A program made the position numbers and the translations under genes. 34,481 bases of DNA from an uncultured Bacilli bacterium (GTDB taxonomy: Bacteria > Bacillota_I > Bacilli_A > RFN20 > CAG-826): assembly GCA_905236535.1 (NCBI GenBank), contig CAJOQN010000055.1, positions 1 through 34,481 of the forward strand, given 5' to 3'. This document shows, piece by piece, positions 28,942 to 34,300 of the stretch. The notes beneath the pieces were generated by a model. That model searched no databases. It had not been told where the DNA came from and worked only from the letters and a program-made list of their open reading frames with translations. The first letter of the stretch is position 1. Every line of letters starts with the position of its first letter.

Positions 28942-30828
28942 TTATAGACGGGTGATAACCTCGTTATATCTCTTGTTTAAGAAATATTCCATATATCTAA
29001 TATTTTCATAAAGAATTGAGATGTTATCCTCTTTCCAAAGGGTAGCATCTTTTATCATTTCGTTAGTAATATGATTGGTTTCATCACGGAATATTTGGAT
29101 GATTTTTTCAAGATTTTCATCAAAAAACTCCGTAAATCTCCGTTTAAATTCTTGTTTTGTCTCTGAAATATCTTTGGTCACTACTTTGAGCCAATAGTTT
29201 GCTGGAACATACGATGGAGCGGTTGAATCCTTAAACGGGTCGACAAAATATGTTCCTTCATTCCAGATATGTCCAAAAGCGGTGATATCATAATCCCAAC
29301 ACGGTCCAAAATTGAGTTTCCCTTCACGATCTTTAAAGAGTTTGACAGAGAGCCATGAGTGGTCTCTTTCGTCAGCGAATAAATCGAGAATACTTTGGTT
29401 ATAGATTGAATCAAGATCAAAGAGTTCATTAATTCTTGTAAGGTTTTTAGAATCCATCGCATCCCATGCGTTGTTAAGGGTCACTTTTAAATGATTGAGG
29501 AAGCTTGTGAACATCGTTGAAGTATTAGAGACTGAATTATAATCTGGAAAATCATCAATCTCTGGATATTTAATTTCATAGTAGTGATTATTTCCGCTTC
29601 TACTAACATTGATATAATCAACATTTTCAGTTCCTTGCTCTGCCGCTCTTCCATCATATTCGATGAGATAATTGATATCCTCAATAGGAGTGTCACTTTC
29701 GATTTCTTGTTCAATATTCACTCTTCCGGGTTTTTCATCTGGATTTTCAATCATGACATATAATCCTTGATAAGCACCATTTAGATAAACAACAACATGT
29801 TTTGGATGAAAGACCACTTTTTGATCAGGGAGCAATTGAACAATGCTTTGAGCAACGAAATTATGCATATTTGAACAATCAAACCACTCGGCGAGCAAAA
29901 CCCAGCTCTTAGCCTTGGCAAGCCCAAAGATGCTTTGCTTACTATCAAATTTAATACGATAAGGTTTTTTAGGAGCGCTAAAAGTGCTATTTCCACGTAA
30001 TCTAATACCCGCGGTCGCTTGATTAATGTTGTTTTTCGACTCTAAAGAATCACTGATACTAATCTTTCCGCTTGTGTATGTTTCTCTAGAATTAATCTCG
30101 GCCCCATTATTCGTGACAATATCCACACGCGGAAGTTTTTCATCTTCCATTCCTTTCTCTAAAAGGAAATATGTAAATTGAACACTATTAATTTTCACCG
30201 TTGAAGTTCCATGATTTGATAAAAGGAAATGATTATATGTTTCAGTAAAAGTATGGTCATAAGAACCTGAGCTTAAGGAAACTTCGTTTAAGTGAGGAAG
30301 AGGAGATTCACCTAAGGTCAGATATAGTTCACTTATCGCTCCTTCTGCAGAGATAGTAAGGTTTTTAATCTTATATACTGGGGTAACGTTCGTGAAAGTG
30401 CCATGTTTTAAAAGGGACAAAAAGCCTAAACCTTTGGCCACATATCCACCTTGGTAATCAATATCAGAAATAGAGAATTTAGTGATATTTTTACTGATAG
30501 TAAAAGAAGTTTCGGAAACTAATGAAATCTCGTGCCACGATAAAGTATCATGCCCATCTAAAATTGTTCCGCACGAGGCACAGTGATGACCCATCGTATA
30601 ACCCAAGGAAGTTTCAGTTGGTTCCACTTCTTCGTCTTCAATCAATGTGAGATGAGGGCATGTTTCAGGGTCAATGTATTCACTTTCGCTTTCAGATATG
30701 TCTTCACTCTCGCTTTCAATCGTGCTTTCTGAAGTCTCAAAACTATCATCGATGTCTATTGGTAAGCTATGACAAGATGACAAAACAAACAAAAGAATGA
30801 TTGGAGCGATAAAATATCGATGTCTCAT
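28942..30828 (-). CDS. CotH kinase-family lipoprotein
   Basis: Lipobox MRHRYFIAPIILLFVLSSC; GIRLRGNSTFSAPKKPYRIKFD, VVYLNGAYQGLYVMIENPDEKPGRVNIE, SVKLFKDREGKLNFGPCWDYDITAFG. Confidence 0.88.
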   Translation of the reverse strand: MRHRYFIAPIILLFVLSSCHSLPIDIDDSFETSESTIESESEDISESESEYIDPETCPHLTLIEDEEVEPTETSLGYTMGHHCASCGTILDGHDTLSWHEISLVSETSFTISKNITKFSISDIDYQGGYVAKGLGFLSLLKHGTFTNVTPVYKIKNLTISAEGAISELYLTLGESPLPHLNEVSLSSGSYDHTFTETYNHFLLSNHGTSTVKINSVQFTYFLLEKGMEDEKLPRVDIVTNNGAEINSRETYTSGKISISDSLESKNNINQATAGIRLRGNSTFSAPKKPYRIKFDSKQSIFGLAKAKSWVLLAEWFDCSNMHNFVAQSIVQLLPDQKVVFHPKHVVVYLNGAYQGLYVMIENPDEKPGRVNIEQEIESDTPIEDINYLIEYDGRAAEQGTENVDYINVSRSGNNHYYEIKYPEIDDFPDYNSVSNTSTMFTSFLNHLKVTLNNAWDAMDSKNLTRINELFDLDSIYNQSILDLFADERDHSWLSVKLFKDREGKLNFGPCWDYDITAFGHIWNEGTYFVDPFKDSTAPSYVPANYWLKVVTKDISETKQEFKRRFTEFFDENLEKIIQIFRDETNHITNEMIKDATLWKEDNISILYENIRYMEYFLNKRYNEVITRL

Positions 30829-30865
30829 ATGTTTTTCTCTTGTTATTATACTAGTTTCGTTTTAA

Positions 30866-30894
30866 ATAAAAAATCCTAACCACAAGGTTAGGAG
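30866..30894 (-). terminator. Rho-independent terminator of the HAD-MFS-GDPD-Rex-like operon
   Basis: Reverse strand TCCTAACC-TTGT-GGTTAGGATTTTTTATTT. Confidence 0.85.
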
Positions 30895-30905
30895 ATTATA
30901 GTTGA

Positions 30906-31325
30906 TTATTTCTTCTTTCGACGAGCTTGTTCATCACCGATGAGGCGTTTCAAGGCTCTTAGTTCAGCATCGCTCCAATTGTAGTTGCGATCAATCATTC
31001 CAGCGTATGTCATCTTCTTATATAGGAAGTCATTTAATGATTCATATTTCGCTAATTTCTTTTTAGTGACAACATTTTCAACTTTGGCCACTTCTTTTTT
31101 GTTCGCATCATCACTGACATATTTTTCTAAGGTCGGGATGAGCTCTAAAAGATCATAGGTGTAATCCATGTTAATCATCGGATCGAAGTAAGAAAGATCT
31201 TCGTTAATCTTTTCAGGATAAACACCGACGATTGAGGCAAGTCTTTCGCTGGTCATATATTTGACTTTTTTCTTTGTCAAAGCTTGCAAATACTTTTTAA
31301 CAGTGGTGACACTTGGTTTTTTCAT
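30906..31325 (-). CDS. Small protein with Rex-N-like winged-helix DNA-binding domain
   Basis: VKKYLQAL...MTSERLASIVGVYPEKINEDLSYFDPMINMDYTYDLLELI resembles the Rex N-terminal domain; no Rossmann domain follows. Confidence 0.65.
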   Translation of the reverse strand: MKKPSVTTVKKYLQALTKKKVKYMTSERLASIVGVYPEKINEDLSYFDPMINMDYTYDLLELIPTLEKYVSDDANKKEVAKVENVVTKKKLAKYESLNDFLYKKMTYAGMIDRNYNWSDAELRALKRLIGDEQARRKKK

Positions 31326-31343
31326 AACTAACTTATTTTATCA

Positions 31344-32078
31344 TTATTTCTTATTTAAAAGTAAATCTTTAACATATTCAGGTTCAATAAACTGATATGT
31401 CACCGTATCAACATAAGGAAGGACTTCTTTGAAGTCTTGTTCGTTTTCAATGGTCCAAACATTAACGAAATGTTTTTTTGAATATTTTTGATAAGCTTTC
31501 TCTTTTAATAAAAGATATTCTAAGTCTAATCCATCAAAATCATAACGAAGTTTAAAGGTGAATTGATGTTCTTTACAAATAAGAAGAGAATTAACAATTC
31601 CAAGTTTCTTCACTTTTAATAAGGCTCTTGGATCAAAAGAGATAATCATATATTTTGATTTATCTTTGATATCTTTTAATTCCTCAATCAACCTTTTAGA
31701 AATCGCTTTATAATTCTTGTTCACCACTTTGACTTCGATAACTATTGGGACTCTTTCTTGATTACAATCAAGAATTTCTCTTAATGTCGGAAGACATTCA
31801 CCATTAGGTAACCGATAATTATCCTTTATCTCTTTTAAAGTTAATTCTTCAATATTTCCATCTTTCCCAGTCATTCTTAAAAGATTAGGGTCATGAGAAA
31901 TTACTAATTCGTTATCTAAAGTAAGATGAATATCAAATTCAAAAGCGGAATTAATCTTAATAGCTTCTTTAAAAGCCTCTAAAGAATTTTCAGGTATGTG
32001 GTCATTATGAAAACCACGATGGCAAATGCCATTTAAATAACGAGGATCTATTCTTTTAATTACTTCTTCTTTTTTCAT
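31344..32078 (-). CDS. Glycerophosphodiester phosphodiesterase family protein
   Basis: GICHRGFHNDHIPENSLEAFKEAI, FEFDIHLTLDNELVISHDPNLLRMTG. Confidence 0.93.
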   Translation of the reverse strand: MKKEEVIKRIDPRYLNGICHRGFHNDHIPENSLEAFKEAIKINSAFEFDIHLTLDNELVISHDPNLLRMTGKDGNIEELTLKEIKDNYRLPNGECLPTLREILDCNQERVPIVIEVKVVNKNYKAISKRLIEELKDIKDKSKYMIISFDPRALLKVKKLGIVNSLLICKEHQFTFKLRYDFDGLDLEYLLLKEKAYQKYSKKHFVNVWTIENEQDFKEVLPYVDTVTYQFIEPEYVKDLLLNKK

Positions 32079-33616
32079 TAATCGTCGCCTGCATCAAAGG
32101 CTTCTATGCCTTTCGCGATTGTGGTTTTTCTTGTTTTAACATTCTTTACAAAGATGAAAACGACAATAGAGACCACTACACATGAAAGAGCGTAGACTGG
32201 TAATAATTGCCAAGAGAAATTAGGGAATAATAACAAAACTCCTAAGGCAATTGGGGTGATGGTTTGAGCGGCCATACTGGAAGCGTAATAATACCCAGTA
32301 AAACGCCCAATTTTGGAGTTTGGACAAAGTTCCACCACCATTGGGAAAGAGTTGACATGGACTAAGGACATTCCAAATCCTTTCACAAACCAAATAATAT
32401 AAATCCAGATTGGGAAGACGCCAGAATGTGGTTTAATCGCCACAAAAGTGAGAATCATCCATGCCGCATAGGCTAAAGCGGTGACACCAAGACCACTTAG
32501 AAGCGTCCATTTTCTTCCAATCTTAGAGGCAATAATTCCGCCTAAAGCAAAACCAGCAACTGAACCGATACCACCTAAGATGGTGTTAACCATATTGCTG
32601 CTACTTTCAGCGCCTAAATAATAAACCGTATAGTTACCCATGAAGGTTCCAATCCCATTATCGGCCATAAACCAGAAGAATTCGGCCACCAAGATGAAGA
32701 TTAACATCATCTTATTCGCTTTAGACATTGGTTTATCTTCACTGACTTGGTCCACGACTTCAGCTTCAGATTCACCTCTAGCCATTTCATCTTTTACTTC
32801 TTCAGCAACTTTGTTTTCTTTAATTAAGATGAAAAGAACAATCGCCGAGATAAGCATTAAGACAGAAGCGATTAAGAATGGAGCTTCAATGGCCCAGATA
32901 TTGTGGTAAGCCCATGATAAGCTTTTATAGACAATATAATCACCTTCTTTAACTGTCGCAGTCCCTAAATATTGACTTAAGACAAAGAAGATACCAACGA
33001 CGGTAGCGTAAGCTCCGCCGATATAACCCATGATATTAATAATTCCATTGGCTTTACTACGTAAAGGTTTAGGGGTGATATCAGGCATTAATGCCACTGC
33101 TGGGTTACGATACATCATCGCAAATAAGACAACGATGGCCATCATAATGATGACACCAGCGAGGTTGTTATAATGGAATAATAATGGAATAAATGGGAAA
33201 GCTACTGAACAGACAAAGGTTCCCACTAAGATGTAGGGCATTCTTTTACCAATTCTTGAATGAGTCTTGTCAGAAATCATTCCAAAGATTGGAAGCAAGA
33301 TTAAAGCGGCAAGGTTATCGATCGCCATCATAATACCGACAAGGTATTGTTGTTGCTCGATAATCTCATTACATTGTTTTATTGCGCCGTCTACTTCCGC
33401 TGGGGTGTATCCGTTTGCGATGGTAATAGCCCTAAGATTTGCATAATCTGGGTTAAATGCTTTAGCGAAAAGTTCCGCTAAGAAAGTTGGACACCAAGAA
33501 TCATAGACTTGCCATAACAAAAGGATACCAAAAAAGGCGAAACCAATAATGAAGGTCCGCTTCAAGTTCAGTTTCAAAGGTTTGACCTCTGAAACTTGAG
33601 ATACATTATCAGTCAT
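32078..33616 (-). CDS. MFS transporter
   Basis: 12-TM pattern; GMISDKTHSRIGKRMPYILVGT in the loop 2-3 region and IIASKIGRKWTLLSGLG; AAGGAG Shine-Dalgarno. Confidence 0.9.
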   Translation of the reverse strand: MTDNVSQVSEVKPLKLNLKRTFIIGFAFFGILLLWQVYDSWCPTFLAELFAKAFNPDYANLRAITIANGYTPAEVDGAIKQCNEIIEQQQYLVGIMMAIDNLAALILLPIFGMISDKTHSRIGKRMPYILVGTFVCSVAFPFIPLLFHYNNLAGVIIMMAIVVLFAMMYRNPAVALMPDITPKPLRSKANGIINIMGYIGGAYATVVGIFFVLSQYLGTATVKEGDYIVYKSLSWAYHNIWAIEAPFLIASVLMLISAIVLFILIKENKVAEEVKDEMARGESEAEVVDQVSEDKPMSKANKMMLIFILVAEFFWFMADNGIGTFMGNYTVYYLGAESSSNMVNTILGGIGSVAGFALGGIIASKIGRKWTLLSGLGVTALAYAAWMILTFVAIKPHSGVFPIWIYIIWFVKGFGMSLVHVNSFPMVVELCPNSKIGRFTGYYYASSMAAQTITPIALGVLLLFPNFSWQLLPVYALSCVVVSIVVFIFVKNVKTRKTTIAKGIEAFDAGDD

Positions 33617-33640: not shown

Positions 33641-34300
33641 TTATTTTAATAAACGACGAGGTTTTTTAAAAGAAAGTTTATTTAATGCGTCTTCTAATTC
33701 AAGAAAAGATTTGATGCTAACAACTTTATTTTTTATCTTCCCAAACCCATAAGAAGCATGAATAAATTTCACACCAGCTTTTTTGGCTTGAAGATAATCT
33801 TTAAAAGTGTCACCGACATAAATGACATCTTCAATTCCTTCTTTTTCCATGAGATATCGGATGTTCTCCGCTTTATCTAAACCAGTGTCGCCCGCGCATA
33901 AAGTACCTTTGAAATATTTCTTAAAATCATAGCCATTAATATAATTATCGATATACCCTTTAAAGGAGTTGCTCACAATATATAAATCATACTTTTTATA
34001 GAGGTTTTGCAGGACTTTTTCCTCATTTTCATATAATTTTCCGGGGTTTTTGCTTAAATATTTGATTTCTTCATCAAAACAAAGAAAGAACAATTTCATT
34101 CCTTCTTCAAAGTTGTCGTTAGGAAAGGCTAAAGGGGCGGTCTCTTCTGGAGTGAGACCCATATATGAGATGGTTATCTCTTTGGTAAAGCGATAAGGCT
34201 TATTATTTTTAATCATCGCTTCGTTCCATGCAAAAGTAATGCCCTCTAAGGCGTCCCATAATGTTCCATCTAAATCAAAAAATATGGCCTTTTTCATCAT
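33641..34300 (-). CDS. HAD superfamily hydrolase (phosphoglycolate phosphatase-like)
   Basis: FFDLDGTLWDALEGI, YIVSNSFKGYI, VIYVGDTFKDYLQAKKAGVKFI. Confidence 0.92.
   Translation of the reverse strand: MMKKAIFFDLDGTLWDALEGITFAWNEAMIKNNKPYRFTKEITISYMGLTPEETAPLAFPNDNFEEGMKLFFLCFDEEIKYLSKNPGKLYENEEKVLQNLYKKYDLYIVSNSFKGYIDNYINGYDFKKYFKGTLCAGDTGLDKAENIRYLMEKEGIEDVIYVGDTFKDYLQAKKAGVKFIHASYGFGKIKNKVVSIKSFLELEDALNKLSFKKPRRLLK

Follow-up and report, generated by a model that had tools for sequence, protein, structure and literature searches.

The window studied here, the whole 34,481-nucleotide stretch of contig CAJOQN010000055.1 from an uncultured Bacilli bacterium, carries four minus-strand genes that form a probable operon. 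The last of them encodes a protein of 139 residues, hereafter T. The genes, the parts of T and the feature that follows it are these:

33641-34300, minus strand: HAD-family hydrolase (context)
32078-33616, minus strand: MFS transporter (context)
31344-32078, minus strand: GDPD (glycerophosphodiester phosphodiesterase family), 5' of the T gene and in the same probable operon
30906-31325, minus strand: gene for T, a 139-aa stand-alone Rex-N-like protein, stop codon included
31092-31325, minus strand: winged-helix domain of T, homologous to Rex-N (residues 1-78)
31194-31217, minus strand: equivalent of the recognition helix (residues 37-44, PEKINEDL)
31152-31193, minus strand: equivalent of the wing (residues 45-58)
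30909-31076, minus strand: family-specific C-terminal domain of T (residues 84-139)
30863-30896, minus strand: terminator-like hairpin with a thymine run, 3' of the T gene

The open reading frame recorded at 30906-31325 in a preliminary description of this DNA exists, with the correction that its coding strand is the minus strand: the frame opens with ATG, and the plus strand over the same interval contains many stops. That description had also made the gene the last of a HAD-MFS-GDPD operon, which fits the gene order, the common strand, the gaps of 24, -1 and 18 bp and the hairpin that follows. This context is atypical for the T family, whose usual neighbor is the gene for pyruvate:ferredoxin oxidoreductase (PFOR), often together with galU, and GDPD is genomic context of T in the window rather than a conserved partner. 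Downstream, T is adjoined by a lipoprotein-like open reading frame with a CotH kinase domain (28942-30828, minus strand; PF08757, E 3.5e-32).

Taking sequence profiles and a structure model together, we consider it established that residues 1 to 80 of T are homologous to the N-terminal winged helix of the redox-sensing repressor Rex. The NCBIfam Rex models match T with E values between 1.7e-7 and 6.5e-5, the best of them spanning residues 2 to 80, at a score well below the curated Rex family cut-off (31.3 against 138 bits). The Pfam model PF06971 matches residues 11 to 45 (E 5.8e-4), yet its 20.3 bits fall under the curated (gathering) cut-off of 27 bits, and at E<=0.01 it matches only 2 of 40 T orthologs. 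Searched against the PDB, a profile of the 40 orthologs matched Rex 3wg9 at E 1.5e-5, and hhalign aligned T with a profile of 54 Rex proteins at a probability of 94% and a pairwise E of 9e-8. The AlphaFold model of T (pLDDT 85) retrieved Rex chains at all of ranks 1 to 34 in Foldseek, with probabilities of 0.91 to 1.00, E values that were all at least 0.056, and alignments mostly about 70 to 80 residues long. Chance similarity between T and Rex is ruled out by the NCBIfam, ortholog-profile and Foldseek matches. The proposal that T is a stand-alone Rex winged helix without the NADH-sensing half is borne out by the agreement of NCBIfam, ortholog profile, hhalign and Foldseek and by the end of the protein at residue 139; the Pfam search and the comparison of an AlphaFold model with Rex that had been recommended with it gave the subthreshold match and the Rex chains reported above.

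Since T stops at 139 residues it has no Rossmann domain, and because that domain is absent, T, as its sequence demonstrates, cannot sense NAD(H) in the fashion of Rex. A Lys/Arg-rich tail had been said to replace the Rossmann domain. The tail is there, but the statement was incomplete, as residues 84 to 139 constitute a separate domain, conserved in the family, which ends in this tail and is predicted to comprise a helix, a beta hairpin and a long helix. No Rex match to these C-terminal 56 residues was obtained (hhalign probability 0.2%). Pfam, PDB sequences and Foldseek yielded no relatives of the domain beyond chance, and PHROGs returned nothing but weak hits on families without a known function.

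Orthologs of T, about 140 aa in length, are present in 74 of the 147 genomes of the order and in 27 of its 46 genera, with single-sequence and profile searches in agreement. The order comprises uncultured Bacilli, several of them from rumen. Among 296 genomes of the class we found no convincing orthologs outside the order, only weak partial matches. A PF06971 scan of 392 genomes of the phylum placed all above-cut-off matches in frames of at least 201 aa, and the only short-frame match, itself below the cut-off, was the window's T; the scan reaches only proteins near PF06971 and does not pick up even the orthologs of T, which leaves room for diverged stand-alone copies elsewhere. Frames of 272 to 275 aa in L101 and L102 suggested fusions with a neighbor and were taken as upstream frame extensions, because the start that aligns with the orthologs falls at codon 125 to 136. 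No account of stand-alone Rex N-domains as a family turned up in our searches of the open-access literature.

In a tree of the N-terminal domain, which used 88 columns only and leaves finer placement unsure, the T family occupies one side of a branch with support of 100/100, apart from the Rex proteins of the order and of the class. Recent truncation of a local Rex is ruled out, as the T proteins form a single clade apart from the Rex of the order and are spread order-wide. The T family is homologous to the Rex winged-helix domain and presumably descended from it, if the two do not simply share ancestry. Across the order, 44 genomes have both T and Rex, 30 have T only, 35 have Rex only and 38 have neither; the corresponding numbers for the window's taxonomic family are 43, 26, 20 and 3. 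Many of the 30 genomes with T and no detectable Rex are >90% complete, and because such genomes exist, the function of T does not depend on Rex. The preliminary description had advised a search for full-length Rex in the window genome. None was detected, and at 75.6% completeness this absence is no proof.

The residues that read the operator are known for Rex of T. maritima: Arg48 and Lys49 in the major groove, Arg60 and Gly61 in the minor groove (PMC8836258). We compared the equivalent positions in 40 T proteins and 54 Rex proteins (30 from the class and 24 from the order, with one sequence in both). Asn41 and Glu42 of T occupy the sites of the base-reading Arg/Lys pair. At the Arg48 equivalent a basic residue stands in 54/54 Rex proteins but in only 4/40 T proteins, which mostly have Asn or Ala; at the Lys49 equivalent the counts are 54/54 and 2/40, with an acidic residue in 33/40 T. 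In the wing, where the register of the alignment is less sure than in the recognition helix, one position is Asp in 36 of 40 T proteins and another is Met, Leu, Phe or Ile in T where Rex mostly has Lys or Arg; residues 45 to 58 of T are hydrophobic and acidic, whereas the Rex wing is basic and Gly-rich. The median net charge of recognition helix and wing together is -4 in T, compared to +1 in class Rex and +2 in order Rex, and the ranges do not overlap (-7 to -2 for T, 0 to +5 for Rex). The former DNA face of T has kept its scaffold and a well-conserved surface, with its chemistry reversed. Taken as a whole, T is a basic protein (pI ~9.5); it has a Lys/Arg tail, and its lysines at positions 10, 11 and 22 are well conserved.

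Because the Arg/Lys pair has given way to Asn/Ala plus Glu/Asp and the basic glycine wing to a hydrophobic and acidic one, T very probably cannot read Rex operators, and we infer that it has lost binding to them. These replacements bear directly on the suggestion, made in the preliminary description, that T acts as a competitor of Rex, a dominant-negative protein that would block Rex operators or bind Rex itself. A Rex-like domain and the coexistence of T with Rex in 44 genomes would suit such a role. We nevertheless consider it very improbable, because throughout the family the operator-reading residues have given way to others, often acidic, Rex is undetected in 30 genomes with T, and T does not branch from inside the Rex of the order.

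The most consistent aspect of the surroundings of T is a codirectional PFOR gene (TIGR02176) no more than 3 kb downstream, which 63 of 74 genomes have: 40 at <=250 bp and 23 more at up to 3 kb. It is the commonest neighbor (34/40 loci), followed by uvrA (19/40), and the adjacency spans several families of the order and is better kept than any other gene pair around T. As gene order, the link between T and PFOR is strong; the synteny may in part reflect shared ancestry. The window genome is an exception, with PFOR on a separate contig (C98), and T is away from PFOR in a few other genomes as well. The order MFS-GDPD-kinase-T-PFOR in G142 (L079) bridges the window's arrangement and the common one. 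In several genomes and lineages galU lies between T and PFOR. This is the case in the closest relative, L002, a goat reticulum MAG with a T ortholog 69% identical, where the order is T-galU-PFOR and the ortholog overlaps galU, with PFOR next (L002:6001-7295); because galU intervenes in several genomes and overlaps T in this one, T may be linked to galU as well or instead. Since a permissive scan found a terminator-like hairpin 3' of T in 29 of 41 loci, T and PFOR are probably transcribed separately in most cases. We looked for a diverged T directly 5' of PFOR in genomes without T and found none. Two further products recur near PFOR across the order, the window genome included: a small uncharacterized protein of ~110-137 aa and one resembling P-loop kinases (L138:5265-5597 and L138:4696-5199).

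Such positional data can be read in another way, in that T could have a general housekeeping function unrelated to PFOR (e.g., RNA or ribosome binding) and owe its position to ancestral gene order only. A basic protein with a Lys/Arg tail would be suited to this, T no longer lies by PFOR in the window genome and in a few more, it has been lost from many relatives that keep PFOR, and in L002 it is near ribosomal protein genes. Against this stands the T-PFOR adjacency, the best-kept gene pair around T and one seen across several families of the order, and we regard the housekeeping function as improbable.

A further possibility, less likely than not, is that T binds DNA as a redox-blind transcription factor of new operator specificity and controls PFOR and perhaps itself. 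Its winged-helix fold, basic pI and tail are compatible with this, as is its location next to PFOR in what is mostly a transcription unit of its own, a common arrangement for local regulators; in C. bescii, moreover, POR is among the targets of Rex (PMC8579813). However, the recognition helix and wing are acidic, and no operator common to the T and PFOR promoters was seen by eye. Classical Rex operators (TTGTGA-N6-TCACAA type) at T or PFOR promoters did not exceed shuffled sequence. Inverted repeats near PFOR starts are enriched over shuffled sequence, some of them being terminators, but those scoring >=8 at PFOR promoters are no commoner with T than without it (43% versus 50%). In the window genome the palindrome TAAGTAT-N4-ATACTTA upstream of PFOR (G000:C98:12289-12306; L138/L211) overlaps a putative -10 box. 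It is the single match in that genome and has close variants in the T-less relatives L139 to L141, which suggests a PFOR-specific regulator other than T. As a site for T the palindrome is unsupported, inverted repeats being equally common without T. Close to the -10 position, the PFOR promoters of L066, L067, L072, L073, L076, L097 and L103, from several genera, instead carry elements like CACGCGTG or related ones containing CG, so the putative PFOR operator seems to change between genera. Overall, the promoter sequences lend no support to T as a repressor of PFOR, though they are compatible with it.

We conclude that T is best read, with about an even chance of being so, as a redox-blind protein of the PFOR neighborhood that uses its former DNA face to dock on a partner protein. 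Docking would be the most likely mechanism because the altered surface is still well conserved. The C-terminal domain could provide dimerization or, via its basic tail, loose contact with nucleic acid. That T so often lies beside PFOR, in most cases separated from it by a terminator-like hairpin, suggests that it acts on behalf of PFOR and independently of NADH, either as an accessory factor or as a local regulator. Several features temper this docking view: the basic pI, the tail and Lys10, Lys11 and Lys22 would also suit a nucleic-acid binder, part of the synteny may be inherited and the window's own PFOR is on another contig, and T may be tied to galU in addition to, or in place of, PFOR. 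A bolder form, which we think rather unlikely, is that a Rex domain freed from its NADH sensor acquired an acidic docking face and became, order-wide, a dedicated partner of PFOR (an assembly factor, an activity modulator or an RNA polymerase adaptor). The terms used for T at the outset, a redox-independent regulator or a repurposed protein, both describe possible outcomes, and we favor the second. In T a transcription-factor domain persists without its sensor. It is conserved across an order, its chemistry for reading DNA is reversed, and gene order ties it to a central fermentation enzyme. T would show a rewiring of redox control in small-genome Bacilli, and it offers a candidate, open to experiment, for a factor dedicated to PFOR.

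T overlaps only in part with the known system. Rex (the NCBIfam PRK05472 group, PF06971 plus an NAD-binding Rossmann domain) shares the winged-helix fold and detectable sequence similarity with residues 1 to 80 of T, whose match to PF06971 (Put_DNA-bind_N) is weak, at 20 against 27 bits. In Rex this part is joined to a Rossmann domain for NAD(H) binding and dimerization, whereas T carries a different C-terminal domain. The Arg, Lys and Gly residues with which Rex contacts DNA are lost in T, whose face is acidic, and the two proteins form separate clades in the N-domain tree. In C. bescii Rex controls POR (PMC8579813), and it is a gene of such kind that T usually adjoins.
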